A stretch of DNA of 64,000 bases from Flagellimonas chongwuensis (lineage in GTDB: Bacteria > Bacteroidota > Bacteroidia > Flavobacteriales > Flavobacteriaceae), in assembly GCF_013376415.1 (NCBI RefSeq), contig NZ_WYET01000004.1:806001-870000 (forward strand). Reading direction: 5' to 3'. Each line of letters begins with the position of its first letter. Within the stretch, counting starts at the first letter, position 1. The notes below the pieces were generated by a model. It had not been told where the DNA came from. It saw only the letters and a program-made list of their open reading frames with translations, and did not search any database. Position numbers and translations under genes: made by a program. Of the stretch, positions 30,584 to 47,656 are shown one piece after another.

Positions 30584-30594
30584 TACTTAAAATT

Positions 30595-30921
30595 ATGGAA
30601 CAACAAAAACTTCCAAATGCGACCCTGATATTGGTCTTCGGAATCATCTCTATTGTAACTTGCTGTTGCTATGGGGTTATCGGACTTATTTTTGGTGTGA
30701 TTGCTTTAATCTTGGCCAACAAGGCCCTTAAACTATACGCTGAAAACCCAGAAATTTATGAAGGCGTACAAAATGTAAAAACAGGTAGAATACTTGCCAT
30801 CATTGGTGTTATACTCAACGTATTGGCTCTTGCCTATTTTATCTGGGCCCTTTCTTTCTTTGGATGGGAAACCTTACAAGATCCACAGAGAATGCAAGAA
30901 ATCCTTGAACAATACCAATAA
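30595..30921 (+). CDS. CCC-motif membrane protein, copy 1
   Basis: A 108-residue protein with two membrane helices and the triple cysteine TCCCYG (Cys23-25) in the first. The inter-helix loop LANKALKLYAENPEIYEGVQNVKTGRILAIIG has the conserved NVKTGRI segment. It fits the CCC-motif small membrane proteins of Bacteroidota, which have no known function. The triple cysteine could be lipid-modified or metal-binding (inference). It lies in the DUF2752-CCC-CCC operon. Confidence 0.82.
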   Translation: MEQQKLPNATLILVFGIISIVTCCCYGVIGLIFGVIALILANKALKLYAENPEIYEGVQNVKTGRILAIIGVILNVLALAYFIWALSFFGWETLQDPQRMQEILEQYQ

Positions 30922-30930
30922 TATAATTTT

Positions 30931-31242
30931 ATGAACCAACAACCCTTACCCGGGGCAAGCACTGTGTTGACAATGGGAATACTCTCCATTGTCCTCACTT
31001 TGGTGTGCTGCGGGCCATTCGGTGCTATTTTTAGCATCATTGGATTGGTAAAAGCTAAGACCGCTACCCAATTGTACGAGCAAAGTCCTGAAAATTACAC
31101 TGATTTCAGCAATGTGAAAACAGGTAAGATCCTTTCTTATATAGGATTGGCCCTTGCTCTCGTTTCTTTAGTATTCGTAATCCTTTATTTTGGATTTATA
31201 GTAGCGGCAATAACTACAGGTGAGTTGAGTGGCGAATTTTAA
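30931..31242 (+). CDS. CCC-motif-like membrane protein, copy 2
   Basis: A 103-residue paralogue of the preceding gene: LPGASTVLTMGILSIVLTLVCCGPFG with two rather than three cysteines (Cys26-27), and the shared loop AKTATQLYEQSPENYTDFSNVKTGKIL. It is separated from copy 1 by 9 bp. Its TAA stop overlaps the convergent recQ stop in TTAA. Confidence 0.82.
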   Translation: MNQQPLPGASTVLTMGILSIVLTLVCCGPFGAIFSIIGLVKAKTATQLYEQSPENYTDFSNVKTGKILSYIGLALALVSLVFVILYFGFIVAAITTGELSGEF

Positions 31243-33440
31243 TTCGCCACTTCACTTATAAATTTAAGACGGTATAAACGGAGTTCTTCATCTTCGTAAT
31301 CGCCATCAAATTCATCAATGGCAGCGGATATGGAATCCGTGTCGGCTTCCAAGAAGTAATCGTGGATTTCTTCCTGTTGGTCCTCATCCAGTATTTCATC
31401 TATCCAGTAACCAATATTCAACTTGGTTCCACTGAAGACAATCTGCTCCATTTCTTTGATAAGTTCCGGCAATTCCAATCCTTTGGCAGAGGCTATATCA
31501 TCCAAAGGCAACTTTCTATCCACACTTTGGATTACGTAAAGTTTTAAAGCGGAATTGGCTCCTGTACTTTTTACTACAAGATCATCCGGCCGTATTATGT
31601 CGTTCTCATCCACATATTTAGAAATCAGCTCCACGAAGGCCTTACCATATTTTTTTGCTTTTCCTTCCCCAACTCCTTGAATATTCAGAAGCTCGTTCAT
31701 GGTCACTGGATACTTTAAGGACATATCTTCCAATGATGGGTCTTGAAAAACCACAAATGGCGGCACTTCATGTTTTTGTGCCTCCCTTTTGCGAAGGTCA
31801 CGAAGTAATTTCAACAAATTCTCATCAGCTACCCCTCCATTCGATTTTTCCGCGGTAACAATATTTCCTGTATCATCTTTGGAGTACACATGGTCCTTGG
31901 TCATCATAAACGACTCTGGATCCTCGAGATATTCCTCACCTTCTTTAGTCAGGTTCAAAATACCATAGCGTTCAATTTCTTTTTTAAGGAGACCTGCCAC
32001 CAAAACCTGCCTGGTCAAAGCCATCCAAAATTCTTTGTCCTTATCCTTACCTATCCCAAAAAAACTTTTTTCATCGGTCTTATGTGAAGAAATCATGGCA
32101 TTCGTCTTGCCGACAAGTACTCTTACAATCTCCTTGGTCTTGAACTTTTCCTTGGTATCCCTTACCACGCTCAGAAGTTTCACTACATCTTCTTTTGCCT
32201 CTTCTTTTGGCTTAGGGTTTCTGGAGTTATCATCCATATCGGCGCCCTCGCCGTTCTCCTCATCAAAATCCTCACCGAAATAATGTAGTATAAATTTTCT
32301 ACGGGATATGGATGTTTCGGCATAGGCTACTATTTCCTGTAAAAGTGCATTTCCAATCTCTTGCTCCGCAACGGGCTTACCTGACATGAATTTTTCCAAC
32401 TTTTCCACATCCTTGTATGCGTAATAGGCCAAACAATGCCCTTCTCCGCCGTCTCGCCCTGCTCGACCGGTTTCTTGATAATAGCTTTCAATACTCTTGG
32501 GAATATCGTGGTGGATAACAAAACGTACATCCGGCTTGTCTATCCCCATACCAAAAGCAATGGTGGCCACCACCACATCCACCTCCTCCATCAAAAACAT
32601 ATCTTGGTATTTGGAACGGGTCTTGGCATCAAAACCAGCATGATACGGAACGGCGCTCACCCCATTTACTTGGAGCACTTGGGCCAATTCTTCCACTCTT
32701 TTGCGGCTCAAACAATAAATGATTCCCGATTTTCCTTGATTTTGCTTCACAAAACGGATGATATCGGCATCTACATCCTTGGTCTTGGGCCGTACTTCAT
32801 AAAATAAATTAGGCCTGTTGAACGATGCTTTGAAAACCTTGGCATCCGTCATCCCTAAATTTTTAATGATGTCTTCCTGTACTTTTGGCGTAGCTGTTGC
32901 CGTTAGACCGATTATGGGGATATTGTCTCCCAAGCGATTGATAATACCTCGAAGATTTCGGTATTCTGGTCTAAAATCGTGCCCCCATTCTGAAATACAG
33001 TGGGCTTCATCCACAGCAACGAAGGAAAGTTTTACATTTTTTAGAAATTCCACATTTTCTTCCTTCGTCAAGGATTCTGGCGCCACGTAAAGTAATTTGG
33101 TCACGCCATTGGTTATATCTTCTTTTACCTGCTTAACCTCTGTTTTTGTAAGGGAGGAATTCAGAACATGGGCAATGCCGTGTTGCTCGGATATGCCCCG
33201 AATGGCATCTACTTGGTTTTTCATCAAGGCAATCAAAGGCGAAACCACAATGGCGGTTCCTTCTTTCATTATTGCCGGCAGTTGATAGCACAGGGACTTT
33301 CCTCCCCCTGTGGGCATAATCACAAACGTATCGTTATCATTAAGAATGTTCTGGATTACACCTTCCTGTAATCCTTTGAACTTCGAGAAACCAAAATATT
33401 TTTTGAGCGAGGAATGTAAATCAGTATTCATTAGGCTCAT
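31239..33440 (-). CDS. recQ: ATP-dependent DNA helicase RecQ
   Basis: A 3'-5' helicase of 733 residues from the chosen start at 33440 (MSLMNTDLHSS); an ATG at 33455 or 33431 is also possible. It carries the Walker A MPTGGGKSLCYQLPA, the DEAH box AVDEAHCISEWGHDFRPEY, helicase motifs to TGRAGRDGGEG, a zinc/winged-helix RQC region and a C-terminal HRDC domain (KHEVPPFVVFQDPSLEDM, LLNIQGVGEGKAKKYG). It acts in recombination and fork repair. The C-terminus has an extra about 100-residue acidic tail, as is usual in Bacteroidota RecQ. Confidence 0.95.
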   Translation of the reverse strand: MSLMNTDLHSSLKKYFGFSKFKGLQEGVIQNILNDNDTFVIMPTGGGKSLCYQLPAIMKEGTAIVVSPLIALMKNQVDAIRGISEQHGIAHVLNSSLTKTEVKQVKEDITNGVTKLLYVAPESLTKEENVEFLKNVKLSFVAVDEAHCISEWGHDFRPEYRNLRGIINRLGDNIPIIGLTATATPKVQEDIIKNLGMTDAKVFKASFNRPNLFYEVRPKTKDVDADIIRFVKQNQGKSGIIYCLSRKRVEELAQVLQVNGVSAVPYHAGFDAKTRSKYQDMFLMEEVDVVVATIAFGMGIDKPDVRFVIHHDIPKSIESYYQETGRAGRDGGEGHCLAYYAYKDVEKLEKFMSGKPVAEQEIGNALLQEIVAYAETSISRRKFILHYFGEDFDEENGEGADMDDNSRNPKPKEEAKEDVVKLLSVVRDTKEKFKTKEIVRVLVGKTNAMISSHKTDEKSFFGIGKDKDKEFWMALTRQVLVAGLLKKEIERYGILNLTKEGEEYLEDPESFMMTKDHVYSKDDTGNIVTAEKSNGGVADENLLKLLRDLRKREAQKHEVPPFVVFQDPSLEDMSLKYPVTMNELLNIQGVGEGKAKKYGKAFVELISKYVDENDIIRPDDLVVKSTGANSALKLYVIQSVDRKLPLDDIASAKGLELPELIKEMEQIVFSGTKLNIGYWIDEILDEDQQEEIHDYFLEADTDSISAAIDEFDGDYEDEELRLYRLKFISEVAN

Positions 33441-33562
33441 TTCCGCATTTTTCAATTTATAACAAGCAACCTAAACGGCAGTTGAAGCTTTTAATATTTT
33501 ATCGTTCATTTACAGATGAATCTATTCTCACTTCCATAATAGTCTGTAAAAGATAGTTTGAT

Positions 33563-33570
33563 TAGTTTTG
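33563..33570 (+). promoter_or_regulatory. -7 box of the kdsD-tatC operon
   Basis: TAGTTTTG matches TAnnTTTG exactly, 67 bp before the TTG start of the KdsD gene. No -33 TTG at normal spacing is seen. Confidence 0.45.
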
Positions 33571-33637
33571 TAATCTTAAATATAAGACATTCTTTTAGGA
33601 ATGCAATCAGTTAATCGGTTTATTACATTATTATACT

Positions 33638-34603
33638 TTGAGCGACATTAAGTCAATTTTATCCATAGCAAAACGCACCCTCGAAATCGAGAGCAAAGCA
33701 GTAGCAAATTTGATTGGACTTTTGGACGACCAGTTTGCGCATGCAGTACAGCACATTTTACAGTGCAACGGAAGAGTTATCGTTTCAGGGGTAGGCAAAA
33801 GTGCCATAGTTGCCTCCAAAATTGTAGCTACGTTGAACTCTACGGGAACGCCGGCCATTTTTATGCACGCGGCGGATGCCATTCATGGTGATTTGGGAAC
33901 CATTCAAGAAAACGATGTGGTGATTTGCCTATCACAGAGCGGCAATACGCCAGAAATAAAAGCGCTGCTCCCCCTAATTAAAGTTGGTAGCAACAAACTT
34001 ATCGGAATCACTGGAAATATGGAGTCCGTACTGGCCAAACAAGCTGATTTTGTGCTAAACACCTACGTGGAGAAAGAAGCGTGCCCCAATAATTTGGCGC
34101 CTACCACCAGCACCTCGGCACAAATGTCCATGGGTGATGCCCTTGCCATTTGCCTTTTGGAGCTCAAGGGGTTCAGCAGTTCGGATTTTGCCAAATACCA
34201 CCCCGGTGGAGCTTTGGGAAAGAAGCTATATTTGCGCGTTGCCGATATTGTGGCCAATAATCAAAAACCACAGGTAGATATCAATGCCAAGGTAAAAGAT
34301 GTAATTGTGGAAATATCTGAAAAAATGCTCGGCGTTACAGCTGTATTGGACCAAGAAAAGGTTGTGGGCATAGTAACTGACGGCGATGTACGAAGAATGT
34401 TGAGCAAATACGATAATATAAGTGGACTTACCGCGAAGGACATTATGACCTCGAACCCTAAGACGATAGATGTGGACACTTTGGCCGTGAAAGCGTTGAA
34501 ACTGTTACAGGAAAAGAGCATATCGCAATTGTTGGCCTTTGATGGTGAAAAATATGCCGGTGTGGTCCACATTCATAACCTTATAAACGAGGGAATCCTA
34601 TAA
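33638..34603 (+). CDS. kdsD: KpsF/GutQ-type arabinose-5-phosphate isomerase
   Basis: This 321-residue protein has an N-terminal SIS domain (VSGVGKSAIVASKIVATLNSTGTPAIFMH, DVVICLSQSGNTPEIK, TSTSAQMSMGDALA) and two C-terminal CBS domains. It makes arabinose 5-phosphate, the precursor of Kdo for lipopolysaccharide. The start is TTG: an in-frame TAG lies at 33596 and no ATG or GTG occurs between. The stop overlaps the tatC ATG (TAATG), coupling the two genes. It lies 1.2 kb upstream of lptB, another LPS gene. Confidence 0.92.
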   Translation: MSDIKSILSIAKRTLEIESKAVANLIGLLDDQFAHAVQHILQCNGRVIVSGVGKSAIVASKIVATLNSTGTPAIFMHAADAIHGDLGTIQENDVVICLSQSGNTPEIKALLPLIKVGSNKLIGITGNMESVLAKQADFVLNTYVEKEACPNNLAPTTSTSAQMSMGDALAICLLELKGFSSSDFAKYHPGGALGKKLYLRVADIVANNQKPQVDINAKVKDVIVEISEKMLGVTAVLDQEKVVGIVTDGDVRRMLSKYDNISGLTAKDIMTSNPKTIDVDTLAVKALKLLQEKSISQLLAFDGEKYAGVVHIHNLINEGIL

Positions 34604-35445
34604 TGGCTAAAAAAGAGAGAAAAAGTCCAGATGAAATGTCCTTTTTGGACCATTTGGAAGAATTACGTTGGCATTTGGTACGCTCAACTTTGGCAGTTGT
34701 AATCATTGCCTGTGTAGCCTTTGTTTTCAGGGGCTTTATTTTTGACACAATATTGTTCGGGCCCAAGAGCATGGATTTCCCGACCTATCAATTTTTCTGT
34801 AATATTGGAAAGTTTTTCGGGGTAGATTCCGAATTCTGTGGAGACACCATCCCGTTCACCATTCAGAGTAGATTGATGGCCGGACAGTTTTCCGCACATA
34901 TCTGGACATCAATTTGGGCGGGGGTTATTCTAGGCTTTCCTTATATTTTATGGGAATTGTGGAAATTCATCAGTCCAGGGCTATACGAAAACGAAAGAAA
35001 GCATTCCAGAGGATTCATCATTACGGCCTCAGGCTTGTTCTTTCTTGGCGTACTCTTCGGTTATTACATTGTTGCACCATTGTCCATCAACTTTTTGGGA
35101 TCTTACCAAGTAAGTAAAGAGGTATTGAACGAAATCGACCTTGCCTCCTACATTGGAACGGTAAGGGCTTCTGTAATTGCTTGTGGGATTATGTTTGAAT
35201 TGCCCATCGTTATTTTCTTTTTGACCAAGGTCGGATTGGTAACTCCAGAAATCCTGAAGAAATACAGAAAGATAGCTTTGGTAATAATCTTGATACTGTC
35301 CGCGATCATTACACCACCGGATATAACAAGTCAAATCATTGTCTGTATTCCTGTACTTATATTGTACCAGGTAAGTATTTTTATTTCCAGAATGGTTGTC
35401 AGAAAAGAAGAACGAAAAGAGAAAGCAAGAAAAAATGCCAAATAA
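34603..35445 (+). CDS. tatC: Sec-independent translocase subunit TatC
   Basis: This 280-residue polytopic protein carries the cytoplasmic N-terminal motif SFLDHLEELRWHLVRS, the conserved FSAHIWTSIWAGVILGFPYILWELWKFISPGL block, and six predicted membrane helices. It is the twin-arginine signal receptor of the Tat translocase; tatA/B are not in the window. The last 20 residues are Lys/Glu-rich. It overlaps the following AhpD-like gene by 11 bp. Confidence 0.95.
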   Translation: MAKKERKSPDEMSFLDHLEELRWHLVRSTLAVVIIACVAFVFRGFIFDTILFGPKSMDFPTYQFFCNIGKFFGVDSEFCGDTIPFTIQSRLMAGQFSAHIWTSIWAGVILGFPYILWELWKFISPGLYENERKHSRGFIITASGLFFLGVLFGYYIVAPLSINFLGSYQVSKEVLNEIDLASYIGTVRASVIACGIMFELPIVIFFLTKVGLVTPEILKKYRKIALVIILILSAIITPPDITSQIIVCIPVLILYQVSIFISRMVVRKEERKEKARKNAK

Positions 35446-35785
35446 AGTAGAAGAGTTCAATGCCTATCGTGCCCAAATGAACGATAAGCTGCTTGCGGAA
35501 AATAACAAACTCATCAAACGCATCTTTAACCTGGACACCAACGCCTATATGGCCGGCGCTTTGGACGTAAAGACCAAAGAGCTCCTAGGCTTGGTAGCCT
35601 CCGCAGTTCTCCGTTGCGATGATTGTGTAAAGTACCATTTAGAGAGCTCCAAAAAAGCCGGTGCCAATAAGGAAGAGGTAATGGAAACCTTGGGCATAGC
35701 CACCTTAGTCGGCGGAACCATTGTAGTACCCCACCTAAGACGTGCATACGAATACTGGGAAGCATTGGAAGAAAGCGAAGCTTAA
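35435..35785 (+). CDS. Carboxymuconolactone decarboxylase/AhpD-like protein
   Basis: A 116-residue protein whose CDDCVKYH motif (CxxC plus His) is the redox-active signature of AhpD-like members. The surrounding KELLGLVASAVLRCDDCVKYHL and EEVMETLGIATLVGGTIVVPHLRRA match the family. It probably is a thiol-dependent peroxidase accessory or an oxidoreductase. I chose the ATG at 35435 because the upstream in-frame start at 35396 lies inside tatC and adds only Lys/Glu. It overlaps tatC by 11 bp. Confidence 0.88.
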   Translation: MPNKVEEFNAYRAQMNDKLLAENNKLIKRIFNLDTNAYMAGALDVKTKELLGLVASAVLRCDDCVKYHLESSKKAGANKEEVMETLGIATLVGGTIVVPHLRRAYEYWEALEESEA

Positions 35786-35824
35786 AAAAATCCAAAAGAC
35801 CATTCGGTAGACAAAGAATATGTT

Positions 35825-35832
35825 TAGTTTTG
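35825..35832 (+). promoter_or_regulatory. -7 box upstream of lptB
   Basis: TAGTTTTG (exact TAnnTTTG) lies 10 bp before the lptB ATG. The implied mRNA leader is only a few bases. Confidence 0.5.
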
Positions 35833-35842
35833 GCAAATTCCT

Positions 35843-36583
35843 ATGAAGCTACGTGCAGAAAATATAATGAAGGCCTACCGAGGCCGAAAAGTTGTTAAGG
35901 GTATTTCCCTTGAAGTAAACCAAGGCGAAATTGTTGGACTGTTAGGTCCAAATGGAGCTGGGAAGACCACATCTTTCTATATGATAGTTGGTTTGATAAA
36001 ACCCAATGGCGGGAATATCTATCTGGATGATATGAACATTACCGCTTTTCCTATGTACAAAAGGGCCCAGAACGGTATTGGCTATTTAGCGCAAGAAGCT
36101 TCTGTTTTTCGAAAATTGAGCATCGAGAAAAATATCCTGAGCGTGTTGCAGCTTACCAAATTGAGCAAAAAGGAGCAACATATGAAGATGGAGTCCCTGA
36201 TTGATGAGTTTGGTTTGGGGCACATCCGTAAAAACCGTGGTGACCTGCTCTCAGGTGGTGAACGCCGTCGTACCGAAATTGCCCGCGCCTTGGCCACAGA
36301 CCCTAAATTTATTCTTTTGGATGAACCATTTGCAGGGGTCGACCCCGTAGCGGTGGAGGATATTCAGCGAATCGTGGCCCAATTAAAGAACAAAAACATC
36401 GGCATTTTAATCACCGACCACAATGTTCAGGAAACTTTGGCCATTACCGAACGTTCCTATTTAATGTTCGAAGGTGGTATCCTAAAAGCAGGGGTGCCCG
36501 AAGAACTTGCAATGGACGAAATGGTTAGAAAAGTCTACTTGGGCCAAAACTTCGAGCTACGGAAAAAGAAGCTTGATTTTTAA
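35843..36583 (+). CDS. lptB: LPS export ABC transporter ATP-binding protein LptB
   Basis: This 246-residue ATPase has Walker [10 protein letters not shown], signature [15 protein letters not shown], Walker [14 protein letters not shown] and the His-switch [10 protein letters not shown]. It drives LPS extraction from the inner membrane with LptFG (not in window). It is full length. The last 206 bp (36378-36583) reappear in diverged, frameshifted form at 41886-42092 beyond the two paralogous genes, so the 3' end of this gene may have been replaced or duplicated during an insertion. Its TAA overlaps the next gene's stop in TTAA. Confidence 0.95.
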
Positions 36584-39024
36584 TTGGATTTAGCGGTGTT
36601 CAATATCTTAACTTCTGAGAATAGACTTCCGTCCTTACCCATTCCTTCGATAATTACCTTTAGGTTATCAAAACCATAGTTAGGAATTTTGAGGGTGTAA
36701 TTGTTGTTCTTATCCAACCATACCAATGGCTCCCAATGAATCAATCCAAAATTCTCAAAAGCCGTGTTGGTAAACGAGATGAATTCTGGGTTATAAAATT
36801 CCTTTTGTCTTTCAAAACCATTATCAACTTTAAATGCAAAAGATTTATCGGACATAAAACCTTTACCCGGGGTTAGATTTAGCTCTTCTCCTTGCCTTGT
36901 AAAAATATATATCGTTTCTGTATTTCCAGCTTTGGTTCCCATATACCTTGACAAACGATCTATATAAAAGCTCTCTACCTGTGTTAAGGGCATCTGGTAA
37001 AGCACATCCAGGTTCATTTGTACCACATCGTCCAAAACAATATTAACTCCAAACCTAGGGTTTCTACGTGATCTTATTTTGTACCTGCTAATAAATGCAG
37101 GGTCTCCTCCATCATAGGCCTGCAATTCCTCCAATACCACATAGCCTTTAGAGCGCAATAATTCTGCCACCGTACCATACGTTAGAGCTAATTCTTCATC
37201 AACAACTGTAATTTTACTTGCCAAATAGCGGGGAACCCTTATATTCTCTCTGGCTTGTTTTTCAAGTTTACTCTGTTCGGTTACCGTAACATTGTCCAGC
37301 GCTATAAGTTCAAAATCTGAATGTAAATCGGGTAACGCTAAATCATTGCTTCTTGAGTCCATGATTCCACTCTCGGTATTAAAAAAGTTAATTTTTTTAA
37401 TACCGGAAACATCAATTTTTTCATCCAGAAAGTAACTGTTAGATAAGCGAGCATACATATTTAACTTGGATAACTTTCCCCAATTGTTCTTTTTTGAAAA
37501 GAAGATGTTTTCTCCATTGATCGGATAAAAGTTGGTAATCAAAAACTTATCTTGGCCAGGGGAAAGGTTTATTTCCGAAGGTTCGTGTTCAATCGATTTA
37601 TGTACCAGAATACTTTCTCTTTTCAATTCTTCATTTAAAAACCCGTAAAGAGTCAATCCATCTACCGAATCATACTTGGTTTCTAATTTATCGCTTAAAA
37701 TCTCTTGCCAATCATATTTACTATAACCTTGTGTTAAAAGGAGCAAATCAAGGTCATATTTTTTCTTAATCTCATTCTTGCTGAAATAGTAGCTTGCATT
37801 TTCTACATCGCCCTGTATATAGGGCATAAGATAAATTTGTTTGTAAATACTATTTTCTCCCTTATAAACCTTTGTGTTTTCGGGTAATACTGAAACACTT
37901 ATCCCCATAGGCTGATAACCCCTAGAGTTTAATGTTATTTCCAAAGAGTCTTTTGTAACCGTTGCGTAGTTTATGGAGGCTTCAACCCTATTTGCTAACC
38001 CACTATTCCAAACATAAAATTGTCTCTCTTCAATAGGGTTGTTCCTATCGTCTAGCAAGGTCAGGATATTTACTCCCTCCATCAAGTTAGTCTTATCAAA
38101 ATAAGCTGTATGCACTCTGGCATTTTTGGACAACACAACAGGCTCTGAGATAAATTCTCCGTATTTGTGCAATAGCAAATTTGTCTTTACCTCACCATCT
38201 TTCAAGGCTAAATCGTTGGCCTCAACTTGCACAAAAACTTCATTTTTGTAGGGATTGTCAACTACATTCAAGTTAATTCCCTTAGCGTAAATCCTGGGAA
38301 CCCTAACACTTAATTCCTCTCCAGAAGGCATTTGCAGATTGGCAAAATAAAAAACGTTCAATTCAGGTGTAATCTCAAATTTTCCAAGACCCAAGCTATT
38401 AGTTTCAATCAATGCCAATTGCTTACCAGCTTCATCCACAATTTTTATATTATCCATTTGTAAAGGCATGCCCATACCATTCTGTACTTTGACCCCCACA
38501 ATATTGTTTATTCCTGCTACAAGTTTGCCGCCCTCCGGCAAAAACTGGATATCTACTTTTCTTGGATCCAGTTGATTTAACGGAATATTATAATCGGACT
38601 TTACGACTAAGATTTGCTTCAAAAATGCATTGTCATCTTTAAAGTTTCGCATCCAGTTGGTTTTAGCTTTTAAAAAATAGCGGCCTTCACCAAATGTTGA
38701 ATCAACCTTTACACTGCCTTTAAAAAAACCTTCGTTCACGTAGTAGAGCAATTCTTTTTTAAGTACTCCCAAACTATCATATACACCCACATTGATTGTT
38801 TTGGATATATCGGAGGGTTGGGATTTTTTAAGGTCATACAAATAACCTTTAAACCAAATTTCCTCATCTGGGAGAAATATATCTTTACCTACCTGCAGGT
38901 ACACAACTTCCCTCGGGTCCTTGAAGTATTCACGGTATTTCTCCTCGATTTGATTTTGGGCATTAAGCGTGTTTATTAGGAATAATAAGGATACTATATA
39001 AAATAGCGGTTTATATTCTCGCAT
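36580..39024 (-). CDS. Exported MG2-like / plug-like protein, paralogue A
   Basis: An 814-residue protein with a signal peptide ([16 protein letters not shown]). An N-terminal region (residues about 30-140) resembles macroglobulin MG2 domains: [53 protein letters not shown]. Beta-domains follow ([16 protein letters not shown]). Near the C-terminus is a TonB-plug-like segment ([15 protein letters not shown]...[20 protein letters not shown]), but no transmembrane beta-barrel follows. Such proteins are common in Bacteroidota without known function; a surface or periplasmic role is inferred. It is a close relative of the next gene. The DNA is visibly more AT-rich than the flanking genes. Confidence 0.75.
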
Positions 39025-39169
39025 TTCTAGATAATTATTATGGTTAGTTGCGTAGTAAGATTAATTTCTTGATAAAAGGTCAAGAAGATACACAAATAAA
39101 AATTAGTTACCCTTTTGATGCTTAAGATGGACTTTCCAAACAAATGACAATCAGAATATTAAATCAATA

Positions 39170-39204
39170 AAAGTGTTTTACTATTACCGTCCTAAAAACA
39201 CTTT
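39170..39204 (-). terminator. Possible terminator between the two paralogues
   Basis: A perfect 10-bp stem AAAGTGTTTT/AAAACACTTT around a 15-nt loop lies downstream of paralogue B and upstream of paralogue A (minus strand). The following sequence is AT-rich but not a clean T-run, so an attenuator is equally possible. Confidence 0.45.
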
Positions 39205-39265
39205 GCTCTATAAACCCTTACGAATAGCGCAATTAAAGATCAAAAACCTGTCGAAAAATGGATGT

Positions 39266-41698
39266 TTAGTTCGAATCACCTACGTCCAATATTCTAATTT
39301 CGGACAACACATTTCCGTCCCTGTCCATTCCTTCAATAACCAACTTTAAGTTATCGAAACCATAGTTTGGGATTTTTAAGGTATAACTGTCATCTTCGTC
39401 TATCCATATCCAGGGCTCCCAGTGAATCAACCCAAAATTTTGAAAAGCGGTATCAGTAAAAGAAGTAAATTCCGGGTTATAAAAGTCCTTTTGTTTTTCG
39501 AACCCTTTGTCCACTTTGAATTCAAAAGATCTCCTGGACATAAAGTCTTGGCCAGGTGTGAGATTGAGTTCTTTTCCACGTCTTGTATAGATATAAATTG
39601 TTTCATTTAAAGCTGATCTAGCACCCATATACCTAGATAACCTATCAATATAAAAACTCTCTACTTGAGTCAAGGGCATATTGTAGAGTACATCCAAATT
39701 CGGCAGCAAAACATCATCCAAAACAATATTAACCCAGGCGCCACGCCTTGATTTAATTTTCACCCTACTGATGAATTCGTTACTACCACCATCATACGCC
39801 TGCAACTCTTCCAATACTTCATAACCTTTTGAACGCAACAACGATGCAACAGTATTGAACGTCAATGCCATTTCTTTATCCACAAAGGTAATTTTATCTG
39901 CCAAATATCTCGGAACCCGAATGTTCTCTCGGGCGCTTTTTTCCATTTTACTTTCCTCGGTTACGGTCACGTTATCCAAAGCAATAAGTTTTTCTTCTGA
40001 GCTTACTTCTGGTAGTTTAAAGTCTTTATTCACATTACTTATGGTTTCTCCTTTATTCTTGAAAAAGGTATTTTTTTGATGACCGGAAACATCAATTCGC
40101 TCATCCAAAAAATAATTATTGGATAAGCGGGCATACATATTCAACTTGGATATTTTACCGCGACCATCGATTTTGGAAAAGAAAATACTCTCGCCAGTGA
40201 TAGGATAAAAATTGGTGATTAAAAATTTATCTTGACCGGATGATAAGTTTATTTCCTTAAGTTCATGCTCGATAGTTTTATGCACTAAAATTTTCTCCCT
40301 TTTCAAATCCTCATTTAAAAAACCATAAAGACTAATTCCATCCACTGGGCTATACGTTGTTTCAAACTGGTCTCTCAAAATAGTATCCCAGTCATATTTA
40401 CCTTGCCCCTCGGTCAATAAGAGCAAATCCATCTCATATTTCTTTTGATGATTGGTGTCTTTAAAATAATAACCACCGTTTTGAATATCCCCTTTTAGAT
40501 AAGGCCTCAAATAAATTTGGCTGTACATATTCTCGTTTCCTTGATAAACTTTTGTGTCCAATGGAAAAACGGATACACTCAGCCCCACGGCCTCGGGAAC
40601 TTTGGAATTTATAGTAATTTCCAGCGAGTCGGTTGCCCGTGAAGAATGCCCTAGTGCGGTTTCAATTTTGTTCTCCCCTAATCCTTTCCAAACAAAAAAT
40701 TGCCTTTCCTCTATGAGCTTGTTGTCCATATCGAACAAGGTCAGTGTGTTGACACCGGTCATTAACTTTGTCTTATCAAAATAAGTACTGAACACTTTAC
40801 TATTCTTGGTCAATAATACTGGTTGAGATACGATCTCACCATCTTTGTGCAAAACCAAGTTTGTATTTATATCACCATCTTCCAAGGCTAGATCATTTGC
40901 TTCAACTTGCACCAAAATTTCCTTTTTGTAGGGATTGTCAACTACATTGAGATTAATCCCTTTAGCATTGGATCTTGGCAATTTAAAACTTATCTCTCCT
41001 CCGGAAGGGACTCTGATTTTGCCAAAATAATCGGAACGGGGATTGGGGGTTATTTCAAATTTTCCAAGACCTTGACCATTGACCTCTATCAATGCCAGTT
41101 GCTTGCCTGACCCATCCTCTATCCTGAGGTCGCCTAAATCTACTGGCAAGCCCTTACCATTGACCACTTTGACCCCCACGGTGTTTTTTATTCCAGATAC
41201 CAGCTTGCCTCCCTCCGGTAAAAAACGGATATCCAAATTCTCGTAATTTAGCTGGTCTTGGGCAACATCCAGGTCGGATTTAACGACTGTGATTTCCTTT
41301 AGAAATGCATTTCCATAACTGAAATTTCTCATCCAGTTTGTTTTTGCTTTCAAAAAATATCTTCCTTCCCCAAACGTTGAATCAACCTTTACACTGCCTT
41401 TAAAAAAGCCTTCGTTCACGTAGTAGAGCAGTTCCTCTTTCAATACTCCCATACTATCGTAAACCCCCACATTGATTGTTTTGGAGATATTGGAGGGACG
41501 TTCGCTTTTTTGGTCGAACAGGTAACCTTTGAACCAAATTTCCTCATCTTCAAGAAATATATCTTTACTTACCTGCAGGTACACCACTTCCCTTGGGTCC
41601 TTGAAATAATCCAGATATTTCTCCTCTATTTGATTTTGGGCATTGAGAGAAATCAATATGAACAAAAAGTAAAACAATAATGGTGTGTGTTTAGACAT
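39266..41698 (-). CDS. Exported MG2-like / plug-like protein, paralogue B
   Basis: An 810-residue paralogue of gene A in the same order and strand. I chose the ATG at 41698 because it gives a clean signal peptide (MSKHTPLLFYFLFILISLNAQ). The N-terminal MG2-like region ([19 protein letters not shown]) and the C-terminal plug-like region (NIVLDDVLLPNLDVLYNMPL) are nearly identical to A. The middle, about residues 150-260 and 380-480, is more diverged. It ends [20 protein letters not shown] like A. No TonB barrel is present. Function is unknown; tandem duplication with central divergence could reflect different ligands or partners. Confidence 0.75.
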   Translation of the reverse strand: MSKHTPLLFYFLFILISLNAQNQIEEKYLDYFKDPREVVYLQVSKDIFLEDEEIWFKGYLFDQKSERPSNISKTINVGVYDSMGVLKEELLYYVNEGFFKGSVKVDSTFGEGRYFLKAKTNWMRNFSYGNAFLKEITVVKSDLDVAQDQLNYENLDIRFLPEGGKLVSGIKNTVGVKVVNGKGLPVDLGDLRIEDGSGKQLALIEVNGQGLGKFEITPNPRSDYFGKIRVPSGGEISFKLPRSNAKGINLNVVDNPYKKEILVQVEANDLALEDGDINTNLVLHKDGEIVSQPVLLTKNSKVFSTYFDKTKLMTGVNTLTLFDMDNKLIEERQFFVWKGLGENKIETALGHSSRATDSLEITINSKVPEAVGLSVSVFPLDTKVYQGNENMYSQIYLRPYLKGDIQNGGYYFKDTNHQKKYEMDLLLLTEGQGKYDWDTILRDQFETTYSPVDGISLYGFLNEDLKREKILVHKTIEHELKEINLSSGQDKFLITNFYPITGESIFFSKIDGRGKISKLNMYARLSNNYFLDERIDVSGHQKNTFFKNKGETISNVNKDFKLPEVSSEEKLIALDNVTVTEESKMEKSARENIRVPRYLADKITFVDKEMALTFNTVASLLRSKGYEVLEELQAYDGGSNEFISRVKIKSRRGAWVNIVLDDVLLPNLDVLYNMPLTQVESFYIDRLSRYMGARSALNETIYIYTRRGKELNLTPGQDFMSRRSFEFKVDKGFEKQKDFYNPEFTSFTDTAFQNFGLIHWEPWIWIDEDDSYTLKIPNYGFDNLKLVIEGMDRDGNVLSEIRILDVGDSN

Positions 41699-41885
41699 TC
41701 TAAATAATTTAATGGTTATCAACTATAAACTCAATTATCATTGTACCCTACCATGAAAAAAATTTAAGCACTAATATTTTAATGCGATTGTTTCATAGAC
41801 AGATATACTTTTTTAAAAAAGTCAATCTTTCACAGTCTTAAATAATAGTTATTAGTAGAATTCCCACATAAACTGTTCCAAATTA
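41699..41885. other. AT-rich spacer upstream of paralogue B
   Basis: A gene-free AT-rich stretch of 187 bp. It contains the 16-bp palindrome ACTTTTTTAAAAAAGT (41807-41822). I see no exact TAnnTTTG box for the minus strand and no open frame of interest. It ends exactly where the lptB remnant begins, so it is probably part of the inserted segment. Confidence 0.5.
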
Positions 41886-42092
41886 CCCAATTAAAGAACA
41901 AAAAACATAGGTGTTTTAATAACCGACCATAACGTTCTGGAAACTTTGGCCGTTACCGAGCGTTTCTATTTGATGTTCGAAGGCGGTGAACTAAAAGCTG
42001 GGGTTCCCGAAGAACTTGCCATGGGTGAAATGGTTAGAAAAGAATGCCTCGGCCAAAACTTTGAGCTAGGTAAAAAGAAGCTTGGTGTTTAA
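41886..42092 (+). pseudogene. Remnant of the lptB 3' end
   Basis: The 207 bp align with lptB 36378-36583 end to end, including the stop codon. The first 19 bases are identical. By hand I count about 30 substitutions plus one extra A in an A-run near 41900, which shifts the frame. The readable part translates as VLITDHNVLETLAVTER...KKKLGV, about 60 residues of the LptB C-terminus. About a dozen changes are non-synonymous, including Q-to-L after the switch-His segment. No homology to lptB is seen upstream of 41886, so there is no Walker A, signature or start. It cannot encode a working ATPase. It ends 2 bp before the convergent pssA stop. Confidence 0.9.
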
Positions 42093-42094: not shown

Positions 42095-42820
42095 CTACTT
42101 CTCGGAAGGCATCAATAAAGAAGCCAAAACATAAAAAAGTATAATCACCGGTATAGCCAAAAACTGTAATGTCAACAACAAAACCAAGCTTCCAATAATA
42201 AACAAATAGCGAATGCCATTATCCTTAAAACTCCAATTTTTAAACTTTAGGGCAAAAAGTTTGATGGGCGAGTTCAGCAAATACGAGCTCAAAACCGTCA
42301 AAACTACCAAAAACCATGGATTTAGGATTATGTTGTTCAACACCTCGTTATTATGATACAGGAGAATCATGGGCATCGAAAGAATCAAAAGGGCATTGGC
42401 CGGTGTTGGCAGCCCCACAAAAGAAGATACTTGGTTCTCATCCACATTAAATTTGGCCAATCTGTAGGCCGAGGCCAAGGTAATGGCAAAACCGACAAAA
42501 GGCAACAGTGTAATTTCTGCATCATGCCCAATAAAACCAAGATTCCAACCTCCCCGTTCGGCCATGCTCAATAACTGGAACATAACCACTCCAGGCACCA
42601 AACCACTGGTAATCACATCGGCCAAAGAGTCCAACTGCACCCCTATTTCACTCTGTACACCAAGTAGTCTCGCTGCAAGACCATCAAAAAAGTCAAAGAA
42701 AATCCCGATAAATACAAAAAGGGCCGCCCATTCCAAATGATTGAGCACTGCAAATACCGTGGCAATACAACCGCTCAACACATTAAGCAGAGTTAAAAAA
42801 TTGGGAATGTAGGACTTCAT
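42095..42820 (-). CDS. pssA: CDP-diacylglycerol-serine O-phosphatidyltransferase
   Basis: A 241-residue membrane protein of the CDP-alcohol phosphatidyltransferase family. The motif DG-x2-AR-x8-G-x3-D-x3-D appears as FFDFFDGLAARLLGVQSEIGVQLDSLAD. It makes phosphatidylserine, the precursor of phosphatidylethanolamine. The start at 42820 gives MKSYIPNFLTLLNVLSG, the family-typical beginning. It is divergent from the Lnb-like gene and convergent with the lptB remnant. Confidence 0.93.
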   Translation of the reverse strand: MKSYIPNFLTLLNVLSGCIATVFAVLNHLEWAALFVFIGIFFDFFDGLAARLLGVQSEIGVQLDSLADVITSGLVPGVVMFQLLSMAERGGWNLGFIGHDAEITLLPFVGFAITLASAYRLAKFNVDENQVSSFVGLPTPANALLILSMPMILLYHNNEVLNNIILNPWFLVVLTVLSSYLLNSPIKLFALKFKNWSFKDNGIRYLFIIGSLVLLLTLQFLAIPVIILFYVLASLLMPSEK

Positions 42821-42835
42821 GAAATTAGATTTCCG

Positions 42836-42867
42836 TAAAAATAAAGGAAAAATCAAACTGTACACAA
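42836..42867 (-). promoter_or_regulatory. Probable pssA promoter
   Basis: On the minus strand, TTG (42865-42867), a 21-nt spacer and TATTTTTA (42836-42843; one mismatch to TAnnTTTG) lie 15 bp before the pssA ATG. Confidence 0.45.
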
Positions 42868-42899
42868 CGGATAGTAGGCCGAGTCGTTTTTATTCTGAT

Positions 42900-42923
42900 A
42901 TTTGTTCTGACAACAGAACAAAT
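42900..42923. promoter_or_regulatory. Palindrome over the Lnb-like gene start codon
   Basis: ATTTGTTCTG (42900-42909) and CAGAACAAAT (42914-42923) are perfect 10-bp arms with a 4-nt ACAA centre. The right arm ends in the AT of the ATG at 42922. It lies in the short divergent pssA/Lnb-like intergenic space. In DNA it looks like a dimeric-repressor operator; in mRNA it would be a hairpin covering the start codon. Confidence 0.6.
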
Positions 42924-44091
42924 GAGACGAAGGCTCCATCTATTATTTTTTTGCTTCATTATTGGGAAGTTCCTTTTTGCCCAAGCTCCACAACTCACGG
43001 AAAATGCACAAGTAAGCCTGCTTACCTGTGCCGCAGGCGACGAATTGTACTATGCCTTTGGCCATAGCGCTTTTCGCGTGCAAGACCCGGCACTCGGAAT
43101 AGATGTGGTCTATAATTACGGGACTTTTGATTTTGATCAACCTAACTTCTACCTCAACTTCACCAAGGGCAGAATGATCTATTCTCTTTCCCGCAGAAGT
43201 TTTGAAGCTTTCCTCTATGAGTACGAATTGGAAAAAAGATGGGTAAAAGAGCAGATCTTGGACCTCAATCTGCAGCAACGCAATCAGCTCCTTGCCTTTT
43301 TTGAAGAAAACTATCTGCCCGAAAACAGGGACTACCTGTATGACCCGCTTTTGAACAATTGTTCCAGCATTACAGGCGATGTTTTAAAAGAACAATTTGG
43401 GGATGCCATTGTTTTTGATGGCTCCTATCTTGACAAGCAATACACCTTTCGGCAACTGGTACGCCAGTTTATGGCCGTTAATACATGGTCCATGTTCGGC
43501 ATTGATCTCGCCTTTGGTTCTCCTGTGGACAGAAAGGCAACGGTACAGGAACATATGTTTTTGCCCTACTATGCTATGGAACAACTAAGGCACACCTCCC
43601 TTAACGGAAAGCCCTTGGTAAAAAGGGAGCGGACCATTTTGGACTATAGCGAACACCTTCAACAGGGCTTTTTTCCGCTCTCACCACTTTTTTGGTTTTT
43701 GATGTTGATGGCTTTCACGGCGATTATCACTTATTTTGATCACAAACACAAAACTCGTAGCCGCTGGCTGGACTTTTCGTTGCTATTTATATCGGGATTG
43801 GCAGGGACCTTTCTCTTTTTGCTCTGGGTGGCGGCGGACCACACGTCCACCCCATATAATTTTAATATTTTATGGGCATTTCCCACCAACGCGATTGTTG
43901 CTTTTGCCTTGGTTTTTCAAGATAACATACCTCAATGGGCTCCAAAATACTTGTGGGCGGCCCTAGGGGCAATGGGCATAGTGCTTTTGCTTTGGATACT
44001 CAAGGTTCAGATTTTTTCCCCTGTAGTTATTCCATTACTTTTGACGCTGGCCATTCGATACCTTTACATCATCAGGTATTCCAAATTATAG
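42922..44091 (+). CDS. DUF4105 (Lnb-type) membrane protein
   Basis: A 389-residue protein with an N-terminal signal/anchor, a periplasmic DUF4105 domain (residues about 25-200) and four or five C-terminal membrane helices (from about residue 250). The thiol-protease-like dyad candidates are His48 in YAFGHSAFR and Cys147 in LLNNCSS. The DUF4105 family has recently been linked, to my recollection, to lipoprotein N-acyltransferase Lnb of Bacteroides, which would transfer an acyl chain to lipoprotein N-termini. That role is inferred. Its start codon lies inside a strong palindrome. Confidence 0.82.
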   Translation: MRRRLHLLFFCFIIGKFLFAQAPQLTENAQVSLLTCAAGDELYYAFGHSAFRVQDPALGIDVVYNYGTFDFDQPNFYLNFTKGRMIYSLSRRSFEAFLYEYELEKRWVKEQILDLNLQQRNQLLAFFEENYLPENRDYLYDPLLNNCSSITGDVLKEQFGDAIVFDGSYLDKQYTFRQLVRQFMAVNTWSMFGIDLAFGSPVDRKATVQEHMFLPYYAMEQLRHTSLNGKPLVKRERTILDYSEHLQQGFFPLSPLFWFLMLMAFTAIITYFDHKHKTRSRWLDFSLLFISGLAGTFLFLLWVAADHTSTPYNFNILWAFPTNAIVAFALVFQDNIPQWAPKYLWAALGAMGIVLLLWILKVQIFSPVVIPLLLTLAIRYLYIIRYSKL

Positions 44092-44112
44092 GTCGGCCCA
44101 CAAACAACATCC

Positions 44113-45984
44113 ATGAACTTATTAACGGTCGAAAACATATCAAAATCGTATGGGGAGCTGGTGCTCTTCTCCGATATCTCCTTTGGAATCAATAAAGACC
44201 AAAAGATAGCCCTGATTGCCAAAAACGGAAGTGGCAAAACCTCCATTCTCAATATCATGTCGGGAAAGGACACCTCCGAAACCGGTCAGGTGACTACGCG
44301 CAAGGGCATCAAAATTTCCTTTTTGGAGCAGGAACCCAAACTCAATCCAAATTTGACCATTGAGGAAACCATTTTCACCACGGACAATGAAATCCTAAAA
44401 GTAATTGCCAATTACGAAAGGGCCGTTGAGAACCCCGATAATACAGAGCAATACCAAAAAGCTTTCGAAGCCATGGAGCGCTTAAATGCCTGGGATTTTG
44501 AAACGCAATACAAACAAATCCTTTTTCAGTTACAGCTTTCCAAACTCGATGCGAAGGTCAGCACATTATCTGGCGGACAAAAAAAGCGCTTGGCCTTGGC
44601 CAATGCCCTGCTCAACAAACCTGATTTATTGATTCTCGACGAGCCCACCAACCACTTGGACCTTGAAATGATCGAGTGGCTGGAAGCATATTTTGCCAAA
44701 GAAAGCATAACGCTGTTCATGGTAACGCACGACCGCTACTTTTTGGATAGGGTCTGCAATGAGATTTTGGAGCTGGACGACAACCAATTGCACACATATA
44801 AAGGCAATTACTCGTACTATCTGAACGAAAAAGATGCCCGGATGGAACGGGAAGCCGTAGAGCAACAAAAGACCAAAATGCTCTACAAAAAGGAGTTGGA
44901 TTGGATGCGCAGGCAGCCCAAGGCACGTACAACGAAATCAAAATCCCGGATTGATGATTTTGCGGAGATAAAACAGCGTGCCCACAAACGCCGACAGGAG
45001 CACGAGGTACAGCTAGAGCTCAACATGGAGCGCTTGGGCAGCAAAATTTTGGAACTGCACAATATTTCAAAATCCTACGGGGACAAAACCATCTTGGACA
45101 AATTCGATTACAACTTCACCAAAGGGGAACGCGTGGGTATTATTGGGAAAAACGGAACGGGCAAATCAACTTTTTTAAATATCCTTACGCAACGGGAAGA
45201 TGTGGAAGGCGGAAAAGTCGTGGTTGGTGACACCATAAAATTTGGATACTACACCCAAAAGGGAATCCCGGATAAAGAAGGTCAAAAGGTTATTGATGTG
45301 ATTCGCGAGTTCGGGGATTACATCCCCTTAAAAAAGGGAAGACAAATCTCCGCGCAGCAACTTTTGGAGCGTTTTCTTTTCGACCGTAAAAAACAATACG
45401 ATTTTGTTGAAAAACTAAGTGGTGGGGAACGTAAACGACTGTATTTATGCACTGTGCTCATTCAAAATCCGAACTTCCTGATTCTGGATGAACCTACCAA
45501 CGATTTGGACATTGTTACGTTGAACGTACTGGAAAGCTTCTTATTGGATTTTCCCGGATGCTTGATCGTGGTCTCCCACGACCGTTACTTTATGGACAAA
45601 ATCGTAGATCACCTATTTGTTTTCCGTGGGGAAGGTGTTATTGAAGATTTTCCTGGCAACTATTCCGATTATCGAGCATACGAGAGCAGTAAAGTAATAG
45701 AGGAACGCGAAAACAAGACCACATCTTCAGAAAAAACGGAAAACAATTGGCGGGATACGAGTGGTGGCAAACTTTCCTATTCAGAGCAAAAGGAATACAA
45801 GCAGTTGGAGAAGGATATCCAAAAATTGGAAGAAAAGAAAGTAGTGCTGCAAAACAAGTTTACAGACCCAGAAATGGATGGGGACGAAATTGCCAACCTT
45901 TCCATTGAACTTAAAGAAGTAACCGATGCCATCGAAGAAAAAACAGAGCGCTGGTTCGAGCTTTCTTCCATTTTAGAAGGATAA
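44113..45984 (+). CDS. ABC-F family ATPase
   Basis: A 623-residue soluble protein with two ABC domains. Domain 1 has AKNGSGKTS, LSGGQKKRLALANALL and LLILDEPTNHLD. Domain 2 has GKNGTGKST, LSGGERKRLYLCTVLI and FLILDEPTNDLD. Between them is a charged linker (EAVEQQKTKMLYKKELDWMRRQPKARTTKSK), and a coiled coil forms the C-terminus. ABC-F proteins bind the ribosomal E site and resolve stalled translation (EttA/Uup-like); which subtype this is cannot be settled here. It is 21 bp after the Lnb-like gene and 2 bp before the next. Confidence 0.93.
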   Translation: MNLLTVENISKSYGELVLFSDISFGINKDQKIALIAKNGSGKTSILNIMSGKDTSETGQVTTRKGIKISFLEQEPKLNPNLTIEETIFTTDNEILKVIANYERAVENPDNTEQYQKAFEAMERLNAWDFETQYKQILFQLQLSKLDAKVSTLSGGQKKRLALANALLNKPDLLILDEPTNHLDLEMIEWLEAYFAKESITLFMVTHDRYFLDRVCNEILELDDNQLHTYKGNYSYYLNEKDARMEREAVEQQKTKMLYKKELDWMRRQPKARTTKSKSRIDDFAEIKQRAHKRRQEHEVQLELNMERLGSKILELHNISKSYGDKTILDKFDYNFTKGERVGIIGKNGTGKSTFLNILTQREDVEGGKVVVGDTIKFGYYTQKGIPDKEGQKVIDVIREFGDYIPLKKGRQISAQQLLERFLFDRKKQYDFVEKLSGGERKRLYLCTVLIQNPNFLILDEPTNDLDIVTLNVLESFLLDFPGCLIVVSHDRYFMDKIVDHLFVFRGEGVIEDFPGNYSDYRAYESSKVIEERENKTTSSEKTENNWRDTSGGKLSYSEQKEYKQLEKDIQKLEEKKVVLQNKFTDPEMDGDEIANLSIELKEVTDAIEEKTERWFELSSILEG

Positions 45985-45986
45985 AA

Positions 45987-46487
45987 ATGTGGTTCCGATT
46001 CACTTCATATTTAAACTTTTTAGCCAAATCCAACAATCAGCATGGTGTGCACTCCCCTTTTGTGTTCCAATATGTGACAAAATGCCTCTATTCCAGAAAA
46101 AGACTTCACAAGAACAAAAGCATCAATACATTACTCAAGACCATCGGTTATTTTGGTTTTGAAATAGTCAGTATTAAAAATAATGTTGAGACTACGGAAT
46201 TGGTCAAACAGACTTTTCCCAAAGTTCGATTTGATGAAAACCCTGTTGACATTCTTTTTGTGGATGAAATAGACGTGCTATTATTTCAAAAAATATATTC
46301 CGAAGGAAAATTGCACAACGATAGCCTTATCTTGATTGACTCTATGTATAAAAACAAGGAAACCTTGGACCAATGGAAGTATTTGATTGCCTTACCTGAA
46401 ATCACCGTAAGCATAGATATGTATCATTGCGGACTTATTTCCATCCGAAGGGAACAGGTAAAGGAACATTTCACGATTCGAATTTAA
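45987..46487 (+). CDS. Shortened class I methyltransferase-like protein
   Basis: A 166-residue protein. Its N-terminal NNQHGVHSPFVFQYVTKCLYS and its C-terminal ISIRREQVKEHFTIRI match the two ends of a SAM-dependent methyltransferase family common in Flavobacteriaceae, usually about 230 residues. The middle, where the Gly-rich SAM loop (E/D-x-GxGxG) should lie, is missing, although the VDILFVDEIDVL strand and NDSLILIDSMY remain. The frame is intact. It is probably a degenerate or repurposed member without methyltransferase activity. It is 2 bp after the ABC-F gene and 17 bp before a small membrane protein. Confidence 0.7.
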   Translation: MWFRFTSYLNFLAKSNNQHGVHSPFVFQYVTKCLYSRKRLHKNKSINTLLKTIGYFGFEIVSIKNNVETTELVKQTFPKVRFDENPVDILFVDEIDVLLFQKIYSEGKLHNDSLILIDSMYKNKETLDQWKYLIALPEITVSIDMYHCGLISIRREQVKEHFTIRI

Positions 46488-46504
46488 AACGGTAATTTTA
46501 GGTT

Positions 46505-46666
46505 ATGGAAAATATAGCTACGGATAACACCATTTGGTACATCTTGGCCGTTTTGGGACTTATCTATCTGATTATTTTGTTCAGAAACAAGAAAGCGACA
46601 AAGCGTAGAAAGTCCCGCAAGTTTATGGAGGGAAAGCGTCAACGAGATAAAAACAATGAGCAATAA
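46505..46666 (+). CDS. Small single-pass membrane protein
   Basis: A 53-residue protein read by eye: MENIATDNTI, then a membrane helix (WYILAVLGLIYLIILF), then a strongly basic tail (RNKKATKRRKSRKF, KRQRDK). The positive tail places the C-terminus in the cytoplasm. Such small proteins recur next to cobalamin adenosyltransferase genes in related Flavobacteriaceae, as far as I recall. Function is unknown. It starts 17 bp after the methyltransferase-like gene, and the palindromic repeat begins right after its stop. Confidence 0.65.
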   Translation: MENIATDNTIWYILAVLGLIYLIILFRNKKATKRRKSRKFMEGKRQRDKNNEQ

Positions 46667-46667
46667 A

Positions 46668-46714
46668 CAATGTGCAATGGACAATTACTATTGTTAATTG
46701 ATTATTGAACATTG
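46668..46714. repeat. CAAT-rich palindromic repeat
   Basis: A 47-nt imperfect hairpin in three paired steps: CAATG/CATTG, CAAT/ATTG and CAATTA/TAATTG, around a short loop. It sits between the small membrane gene and the adenosyltransferase gene. Similar CAATTG-type intergenic palindromes are frequent in Bacteroidota; only one copy is visible here. Confidence 0.5.
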
Positions 46715-46726
46715 ATAACTGATACC

Positions 46727-47284
46727 ATGAAGATATATACCAAAACTGGGGACAAGGGCACCACATCGTTATTTACAGGCACACGTGTTCCCAAGCATCA
46801 CGTCCGCATTGAAAGTTATGGCACCATTGATGAACTCAATTCACATGTAGGGCTTTTACGGGACCAGGATATGGATGAACATTCCAAAAAAACACTTTCC
46901 CTTGTCCAAGAAAAGCTTTTTACCGTGGGCTCCATACTGGCCACAGAGCCCAAAAAGGACAAAAGGCTTAAGATTTCCCGCATAAGTTCCGAAGATATTG
47001 AGCTTTTGGAACAGGAAATGGACAAGATGAACGAAAGCCTTCCGGAAATGACACATTTTATACTACCAGGAGGGCACACCACCGTGTCATACTGTCATAT
47101 TGCCAGAACGGTTTGCCGACGGGGAGAACGTATGATTTCCTATTTACATGAGAATGAGCCGGTGCCGGAGAACGTTTTATCCTATATTAATCGACTTTCC
47201 GATTATTTATTTGTTCTGGCACGCAAATTGTCCAAAGATTTAAATGCCAAAGAGGTCAAATGGATTCCTGAGAAGTTGGACTGA
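46727..47284 (+). CDS. PduO-type cob(I)alamin adenosyltransferase
   Basis: A 185-residue protein with the ATP-binding N-terminus YTKTGDKGTTSLFTGTRVPKHHVRIESYG, TIDELNSHVGLLRD and the C-terminal ARTVCRRGERMISYL and INRLSDYLFVLARKL. It makes adenosylcobalamin, the cofactor of methylmalonyl-CoA mutase, whose chaperone MeaB is 10 kb downstream. I chose the ATG at 46727 (MKIYTKTGDKG); an ATG at 46712 lies beside the palindromic repeat and would add five residues. Confidence 0.93.
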   Translation: MKIYTKTGDKGTTSLFTGTRVPKHHVRIESYGTIDELNSHVGLLRDQDMDEHSKKTLSLVQEKLFTVGSILATEPKKDKRLKISRISSEDIELLEQEMDKMNESLPEMTHFILPGGHTTVSYCHIARTVCRRGERMISYLHENEPVPENVLSYINRLSDYLFVLARKLSKDLNAKEVKWIPEKLD

Positions 47285-47352
47285 CAAAATCGCTTTTTTG
47301 CCCTAAATGTTTTGTCAACAATAAAATAATTTTTAAATAATGGTGTTTTTAC

Positions 47353-47382
47353 TTGGCAGATTGAGTTTAAAAATTATTTTTG
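47353..47382 (+). promoter_or_regulatory. Promoter of the DUF2795 gene
   Basis: TTG (47353-47355), a 19-nt spacer and TATTTTTG (47375-47382) are a full match to the Bacteroidota promoter. The gene starts 28 bp downstream. Confidence 0.65.
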
Positions 47383-47634: not shown

Positions 47635-47656
47635 ATCCGAAAACACAAACCACGTT

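Follow-up and report, generated by a model that had tools for sequence, protein, structure and literature searches.

Accessory genes at the 3' end of lptB in Flagellimonas and a possible route for their spread between species

Introduction

How did two paralogous genes come to stand between lptB and pssA in Flagellimonas chongwuensis, with a second, damaged copy of the lptB 3' end on their far side? The locus lies in a stretch of 64,000 nucleotides (contig NZ_WYET01000004.1, positions 806,001 to 870,000 of assembly GCF_013376415.1), called the window below, in whose coordinates all features are given. Its genome is labelled G000, and P denotes the subfamily of the two paralogues, P1 and P2. 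An initial annotation of the sequence had read the locus as a single insertion of about 5.3 kb at the lptB 3' end, by which the native end of the gene was displaced and left to decay. Here, we compare the locus with 71 genomes of the same genus and with 397 genomes of the family (three of this genus), and weigh the ways in which it could have arisen.

The lptB 3' end and the genes between its two copies

The host gene of the duplicated 3' end, lptB, is intact (35843..36583, + strand; TIGR04406, 360 bits). Its last 206 nt, lptB bases 536–741 (36378..36583, +), represent the functional copy of the repeated tail and align with 41886..42092 (+) with 30 mismatches and one extra A. The second copy ends in TAA, 2 bases from the stop codon of the right-hand neighbour pssA (42095..42820, −; CDP-OH_P_transf above cut-off, TIGR00473 at 90 bits, short of the 107 that this model requires). 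Against an HMM of 66 lptB ends it scored 169 bits, compared with at most 4.8 bits for the controls (38 reversed and 380 shuffled spacers), which confirms the decayed copy of the lptB end that had been annotated beside pssA. Apart from the cases described here, the lptB tail is nearly always single-copy: two matches were found only in G000 and G382 among the 397 family genomes (388 with a match), and only in G000 and G017 among the 71 genomes of the genus (69 with a match), a search for which the 43-bp tail of G012 described below is too short. G382, of the same family, is a genome with 7% contamination.

Between the two copies lie P1 (36580..39024, −; 814 aa), whose stop codon overlaps that of lptB, and P2 (39266..41698, −; 810 aa), whose open reading frame extends to 41722 from a TTG. 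The two proteins are 66–67% identical, and the GC content of the genes is 0.32–0.43 in 500-base windows, against 0.39–0.48 immediately on either side. P1-type copies occur in G017 (87.0% nucleotide identity) and G012 (87.6%), and a copy of P2 in G022 (85.5%). By eye, both proteins begin like signal peptides; both show a weak MG2 match under Pfam's cut-off, and NCBIfam gave no match for either. Fold prediction for P yielded no usable fold (mean pLDDT 51.7), comparison with PDB sequences only two matches (E 0.08–0.1), and a scan for promoters and terminators only scores under the shuffle means. A role related to the surface or to secretion is our guess; the account below deals with the placement of P.

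A further trace of lptB may lie between P1 and P2, at about 39222..39270 (+). This stretch begins with ~18 bases that match the start of the tail and, judged by eye, closes at the P2 stop with bases that match the lptB end, as in a short relic of an lptB end with an internal deletion. Its score was equalled by 3/1000 shuffles, for a stretch picked by hand, and a homologous stretch between the two P genes of G022 was reached by 7/1000 shuffles; we take this as modest evidence for a relic. If so, the initial annotation, which saw a repeat of lptB nowhere else, would not be quite right on this point; the 206-bp tail copy stands. The single insertion event of about 5.3 kb is too simple as well, with two cassettes present.

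The lptB–pssA junction across the genus

A junction with both the lptB end and pssA on a single contig could be read for 68 of the 71 genomes; the junction count excludes G006, whose contigs are split, as well as G014 and G090. Direct contact of lptB with pssA is a common state (30/68), by our count with a gap of 4–20 bp to the last pssA sense codon, the pssA stop codon included. The other junctions hold an insert of 427–479 bp (24/68; in the single case scanned, G016, an ORF with a bPH domain), an insert of 880–890 bp (5/68; in the single case scanned, G034, an ORF with DUF4198), a 200-aa ORF (1/68), a 169-bp inverted-repeat element (1/68, G001) or P (7/68: G000, G012, G013, G017, G022, G078 and G093). 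The G001 spacer (L036) sits exactly between lptB and pssA, has inverted ends of ~20 bp (by eye) and looks like a miniature transposon.

At an identity of at least 65%, P gave 10 matches in 7/71 genomes, all between lptB and pssA, one of them being the cut-off start of the second P of G022. Each of the seven P inserts comprises a single P gene or a pair, in some cases accompanied by a small neighbouring gene. P is patchy in the genus. Neither outcome that the initial annotation had named as refuting its reading was seen, namely the pair and the remnant in all relatives with vertical divergence, or a remnant that is a simple recent duplicate within the species.

More distant members of the P family are found beyond these seven loci. 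Outside the genus, five of the sampled family genomes (397 in all) match P at E 1e-100, all at 32–34% identity, and Flagellimonas lutimaris carries a distant relative (31%). Broader relatives, at about 25–35% identity, mostly have no adjoining lptB at the loci inspected, many of which comprise only about 1.5 kb of flank. In G006 (L137, 8902–16319), lptB is followed by two whole P-family genes (34–35%) and a third that is cut by the contig end, and another contig (L028, 1–1827) begins in a P gene adjoining pssA; this is probably a three-gene P array at the lptB–pssA site. In G304, which belongs to another genus (L140, 5249–9628), a P-family gene (33%) adjoins pssA and is separated by ~500 bp from lptB. 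Because these relatives also lie between lptB and pssA, the link of the wider family with this site may be old.

lptB tails beyond P

Each lptB was aligned to the spacer of its own genome for the 38 spacers longer than 100 bp. A tail beyond P was found in three genomes, all P carriers: G017 (194/206 identical), G000 (176/206) and G012 (43/43, lptB 699–741), and the tail HMM agreed. In the other 35 spacers, lptB-tail scores stayed at shuffle level. Among the P loci, no decayed tail was found in G013, G078 and G093, and none that is clear in the fourth tail-less locus, G022, where 49/1000 shuffles scored as high as the right flank. The 31 spacers without P (bPH-type, DUF4198-type, 200-aa ORF and 169-bp element) gave no tail above shuffles, and the G006 spacers no tail match.

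The tails of G000 and G017 keep the usual lptB–pssA spacing. That of G012 abuts a bPH-type gene, not pssA, and lptB does likewise in G061, the nearest relative of G012 by lptB; the layout thus also occurs against another neighbour than pssA. Because the tails keep the former neighbour and its spacing, the remnant is best read as the former lptB end still in place. Together with the direct junctions and the patchy distribution of P, this upholds the earlier proposal of an insertion at the lptB 3' end with displacement of the former end. G012 is apparently a metagenome-assembled genome of low coverage.

The pattern of substitutions bears on whether the displaced ends were once functional. Between the G017 tail and the lptB of that genome there are 10 differences over 198 nt, all at synonymous third positions; the nine joint-side bases left out of this count hold three more, one of them not synonymous, so that 12/13 differences are synonymous when these bases are included. 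Random changes would be synonymous 20–28% of the time, and the working lptB genes of related genomes (21 pairs) likewise differ mostly at synonymous positions. Since the differences are all or nearly all synonymous, both tails of G017 worked as gene ends in separate lineages, the displaced one until recently. In the G000 remnant, the 30 differences comprise 17 synonymous and 13 non-synonymous ones, fitting an earlier functional divergence followed by decay. A displaced end of the kind described by the initial annotation is hence seen in G017, as the functional end of another lineage, with a mixed picture in G000.

Alternatively, the lptB end or a tail–P unit could have been duplicated in place and then have drifted. 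Tandem P arrays do exist (in G022 and, probably with three genes, in G006), and for G000 taken alone the ratio of 17 to 13 is near expectation under such a duplication (P 0.075). Against it, the remnant keeps the lptB–pssA spacing while lptB now abuts P, and the synonymous pattern of G017 would arise by chance with a probability of 1.7e-4 (10/10) or 2.4e-4 (12/13) even if the functional copy is also allowed synonymous changes. We reject in-place duplication for G017, where the pattern makes it very unlikely; the rejection is not full for G000, and for the locus as a whole we give this explanation hardly any weight.

Movement of P between species

To place P relative to its surroundings, identity at fourfold sites was compared between P (best-matching copies) and the flanking genes tatC, CMD, lptB, pssA and Lnb for each of the 21 pairings among the seven P carriers. 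In 7/21 pairs, the identity of P exceeds that of every one of the five flanking genes: G000/G012 (P 65% vs flanks 40–52%), G000/G022 (69% vs 40–55), G017/G012 (60% vs 33–47), G022/G078 (48% vs 30–44), G013/G078 (55% vs 32–41), G013/G093 (56% vs 35–52) and G078/G093 (60% vs 33–49). In the remaining 14 pairs P is not above all flanks, and pairs with different P types are often lower, such as G000/G013 (37% vs 48–55). Vertical descent looks likely for G000/G017 (67 vs 54–70) and G022/G013 (59 vs 60–62). The non-allelic pair G000_P1/G022_Pa reaches only 38% at fourfold sites, so AT-richness alone is not the cause of the high P values. With P above its flanks in seven pairs and often below them between types, P comprises old types of which same-type copies are often younger than their host species, and P has moved between some species.

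The first P of G022 (L048) has a body of the G013 type, whereas its first ~200 bases are closest to P1 and its upstream region is P1-like; P genes thus exchange parts.

A second trace of exchange lies next to the site. From ~42500 to 53090 of the window (about 42.6–53.1 kb), 30/42 windows of 250 bp are 98–100% identical to G010, a genome of another species, and the others 81–97%, as compared with 86.6% to the left of the site (22540–36583) and 91.0% to the right of 53235. This G010-like tract starts inside pssA, and we interpret it as a recent homologous exchange between species that reached to within ~400–500 bp of the remnant.

The joints and the origin of the present lptB end

At the right end of the cassette, the region upstream of P2 (41699..41885) closes with ~24 bases that precede the remnant. 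G000_P2 and G017 have the same right joint together with these bases (about 21/24, counted by eye), which recur at ~21/24 also in G022, where no clear tail follows. Despite the common joint, the tail of G017 is fresh and that of G000 decayed. Because the joint is shared while the tails differ in age, it is probably older than the displacement in G017 and came with the cassette, as would be expected if the cassette brings a piece of lptB of its own. This step is the weakest link of the argument.

The joints are also where homology-facilitated illegitimate recombination has to be considered, a process known from competent bacteria (PMC3240628). Here, a foreign lptB–P fragment would have recombined by homology in lptB on one side and by a chance short homology inside the recipient tail on the other, leaving the right-hand tail without any role. 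Such an event would account for the origin of the first tail-carrying joint; short shared stretches are seen at the joints (by eye), and the tails start at two places, lptB 536 (G000 and G017) and lptB 699 (G012). The bases that precede the G012 tail, however, resemble the 536 joint (by eye), and the two places may be one joint with a later deletion in G012. Moreover, the common joint of G000 and G017, with tails displaced at different times, would need two events at the same base. We regard this explanation as unlikely.

The initial annotation had further suggested that the present lptB of G000 is a hybrid. The bases of G000 at lptB 698–738 are shared in full with G078 alone, another P carrier, whose lptB is otherwise 81.8% identical; the part from 699 to 738 (36541..36580, +) could be an imported end, as only 2/2145 lptB pairs are identical there, the other being G018/G070 (88.0% elsewhere). 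This shared stretch, a single pair noticed after looking, starts where the G012 tail starts. In addition, the first 180 bp of the G000 lptB are 97–98% like G059, and later 60-bp windows 83–97%. On the other side, G026, from whose site P is absent, likewise combines two marker codons of the stretch, and the excess similarity of P does not extend to lptB in general. The hybrid is consequently only weakly supported by the identity to G078 and the similarity to G059. Since lptB lacks the excess, left-hand exchanges would have taken place near its end or have been overwritten. The whole region is a mosaic, and single breakpoints are unsafe.

Search for a recombinase and for viral or plasmid copies

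Alternatively, the insert could be the remnant of an element driven by an integrase, with the lptB 3' end as its attachment site, which supplied a replacement end and has since lost its integrase. The layout fits: in E. coli, e14 supplies the end of icd, and a native end of 163 bp remains beyond the element (PMC6379469). Among the open reading frames of at least 60 aa in the 5.3-kb insert (P1, P2 and four of 62–76 aa opposite P2), Pfam gave only MG2 in P1 and P2, nothing in the four small frames and no integrase-like match. The composition of the seven P inserts described above also speaks against such an element. Of the lptB tail, no relative was confirmed among 13 pattern matches in IMG/VR, and seven matching phage records were at most 67.2% identical, none of them a close copy; in 56 plasmid records, the best among the matches listed reached 68.7%. 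The comparison with integration into a conserved gene 3' end, drawn in the initial annotation, therefore holds for the layout, with an end supplied and a native end displaced; site-specific integration was not seen, and neither were an integrase and a viral copy. We consider a remnant of an integrase-driven element quite improbable. Among the papers listed in our literature search, lptB did not appear as a site of insertion; this does not show that no such report exists.

Proposed mechanism

On balance, we lean towards a spread of P by homologous recombination between species, with lptB sequence on both flanks of the cassette as the homology. P genes would then make up a cassette that is bound to one locus and passes from species to species within the genus through ordinary homologous recombination. 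The left side of the cassette is fused to the lptB end through the overlapping stop codons, and a piece of lptB tail can be attached to its right side. In a recipient with lptB against pssA or another gene, donor DNA would enter, presumably by transformation; the left exchange would take place within lptB or at its end, the right one between the lptB piece of the cassette, probably the part that recombines, and the tail of the recipient. As a result, P would be inserted with lptB whole, and the former tail of the recipient would be left beyond P to decay.

Several observations temper this model. No excess of P was seen in 14/21 pairs, and 4/7 P loci (G013, G022, G078 and G093) have no clear tail. 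The 43-bp tail and the lptB of G012 agree at every position, a likeness shared there by one of 2145 lptB pairs (G061 has 40/43), and a foreign donor alone does not explain this. The G000 genome contains the competence (PF03772) and DprA (PF02481) families, but these match in the E. coli control too. Competence is reported for Riemerella but, with conditions unchanged, not for F. johnsoniae (PMC7965970).

Tentatively, and with more doubt than conviction, P might be viewed as a recombinase-free mobile cassette. A host-gene end on both flanks would let the recombination of the recipient insert P at one site, beside any downstream neighbour and with the host gene unharmed, and the same repeats could multiply P or remove it cleanly. 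This suggests a route by which accessory genes could become established beside the end of a core gene with no enzyme devoted to the task, the end serving as a landing pad that is restored at every insertion. Were the route general, such transfers could be recognised by repeats of gene ends next to ordinary genes, and some accessory genes beside core genes could be traced in this way. With at least five kinds of insert at this site in one genus, the proposal is testable in culture.

Comparison with known systems

The closest known layout is that of e14 in icd, in which the inserted DNA likewise supplies the 3' end of a housekeeping gene and the native end lies on the far side. The same arrangement is found for phage 21 in icd of E. 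coli. In contrast to e14, a prophage with site-specific integration, the insert described here is a single P gene or a pair of them, in which no gene for an integrase was found. The P insert thus resembles an e14-type element, and it is not classed as one because searches for an integrase and for a viral form that carries the tail yielded neither.

Genomic islands in the 3' ends of tRNA or other genes regenerate their 3'-end target on insertion, and the lptB end is likewise regenerated. Such islands differ from the P loci, whose repeats measure 206 and 43 bp and whose cargo belongs to one gene family, with no gene for a recombinase found. Homology-facilitated illegitimate recombination (PMC3240628) is similar in that one end would be formed by homology and the other by a chance joint. 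It differs from the situation at lptB, where one right joint is common to species whose tails were displaced at different times.

Finally, in recombining bacteria, homologous flanks carry in variable genes, leading to the exchange of alleles and accessory genes. The spread of P by homologous recombination would be similar in that homologous flanks bring in variable genes. The difference is that the right flank is here a second copy of the end of the left flank, so that the cassette need not match the downstream neighbour.
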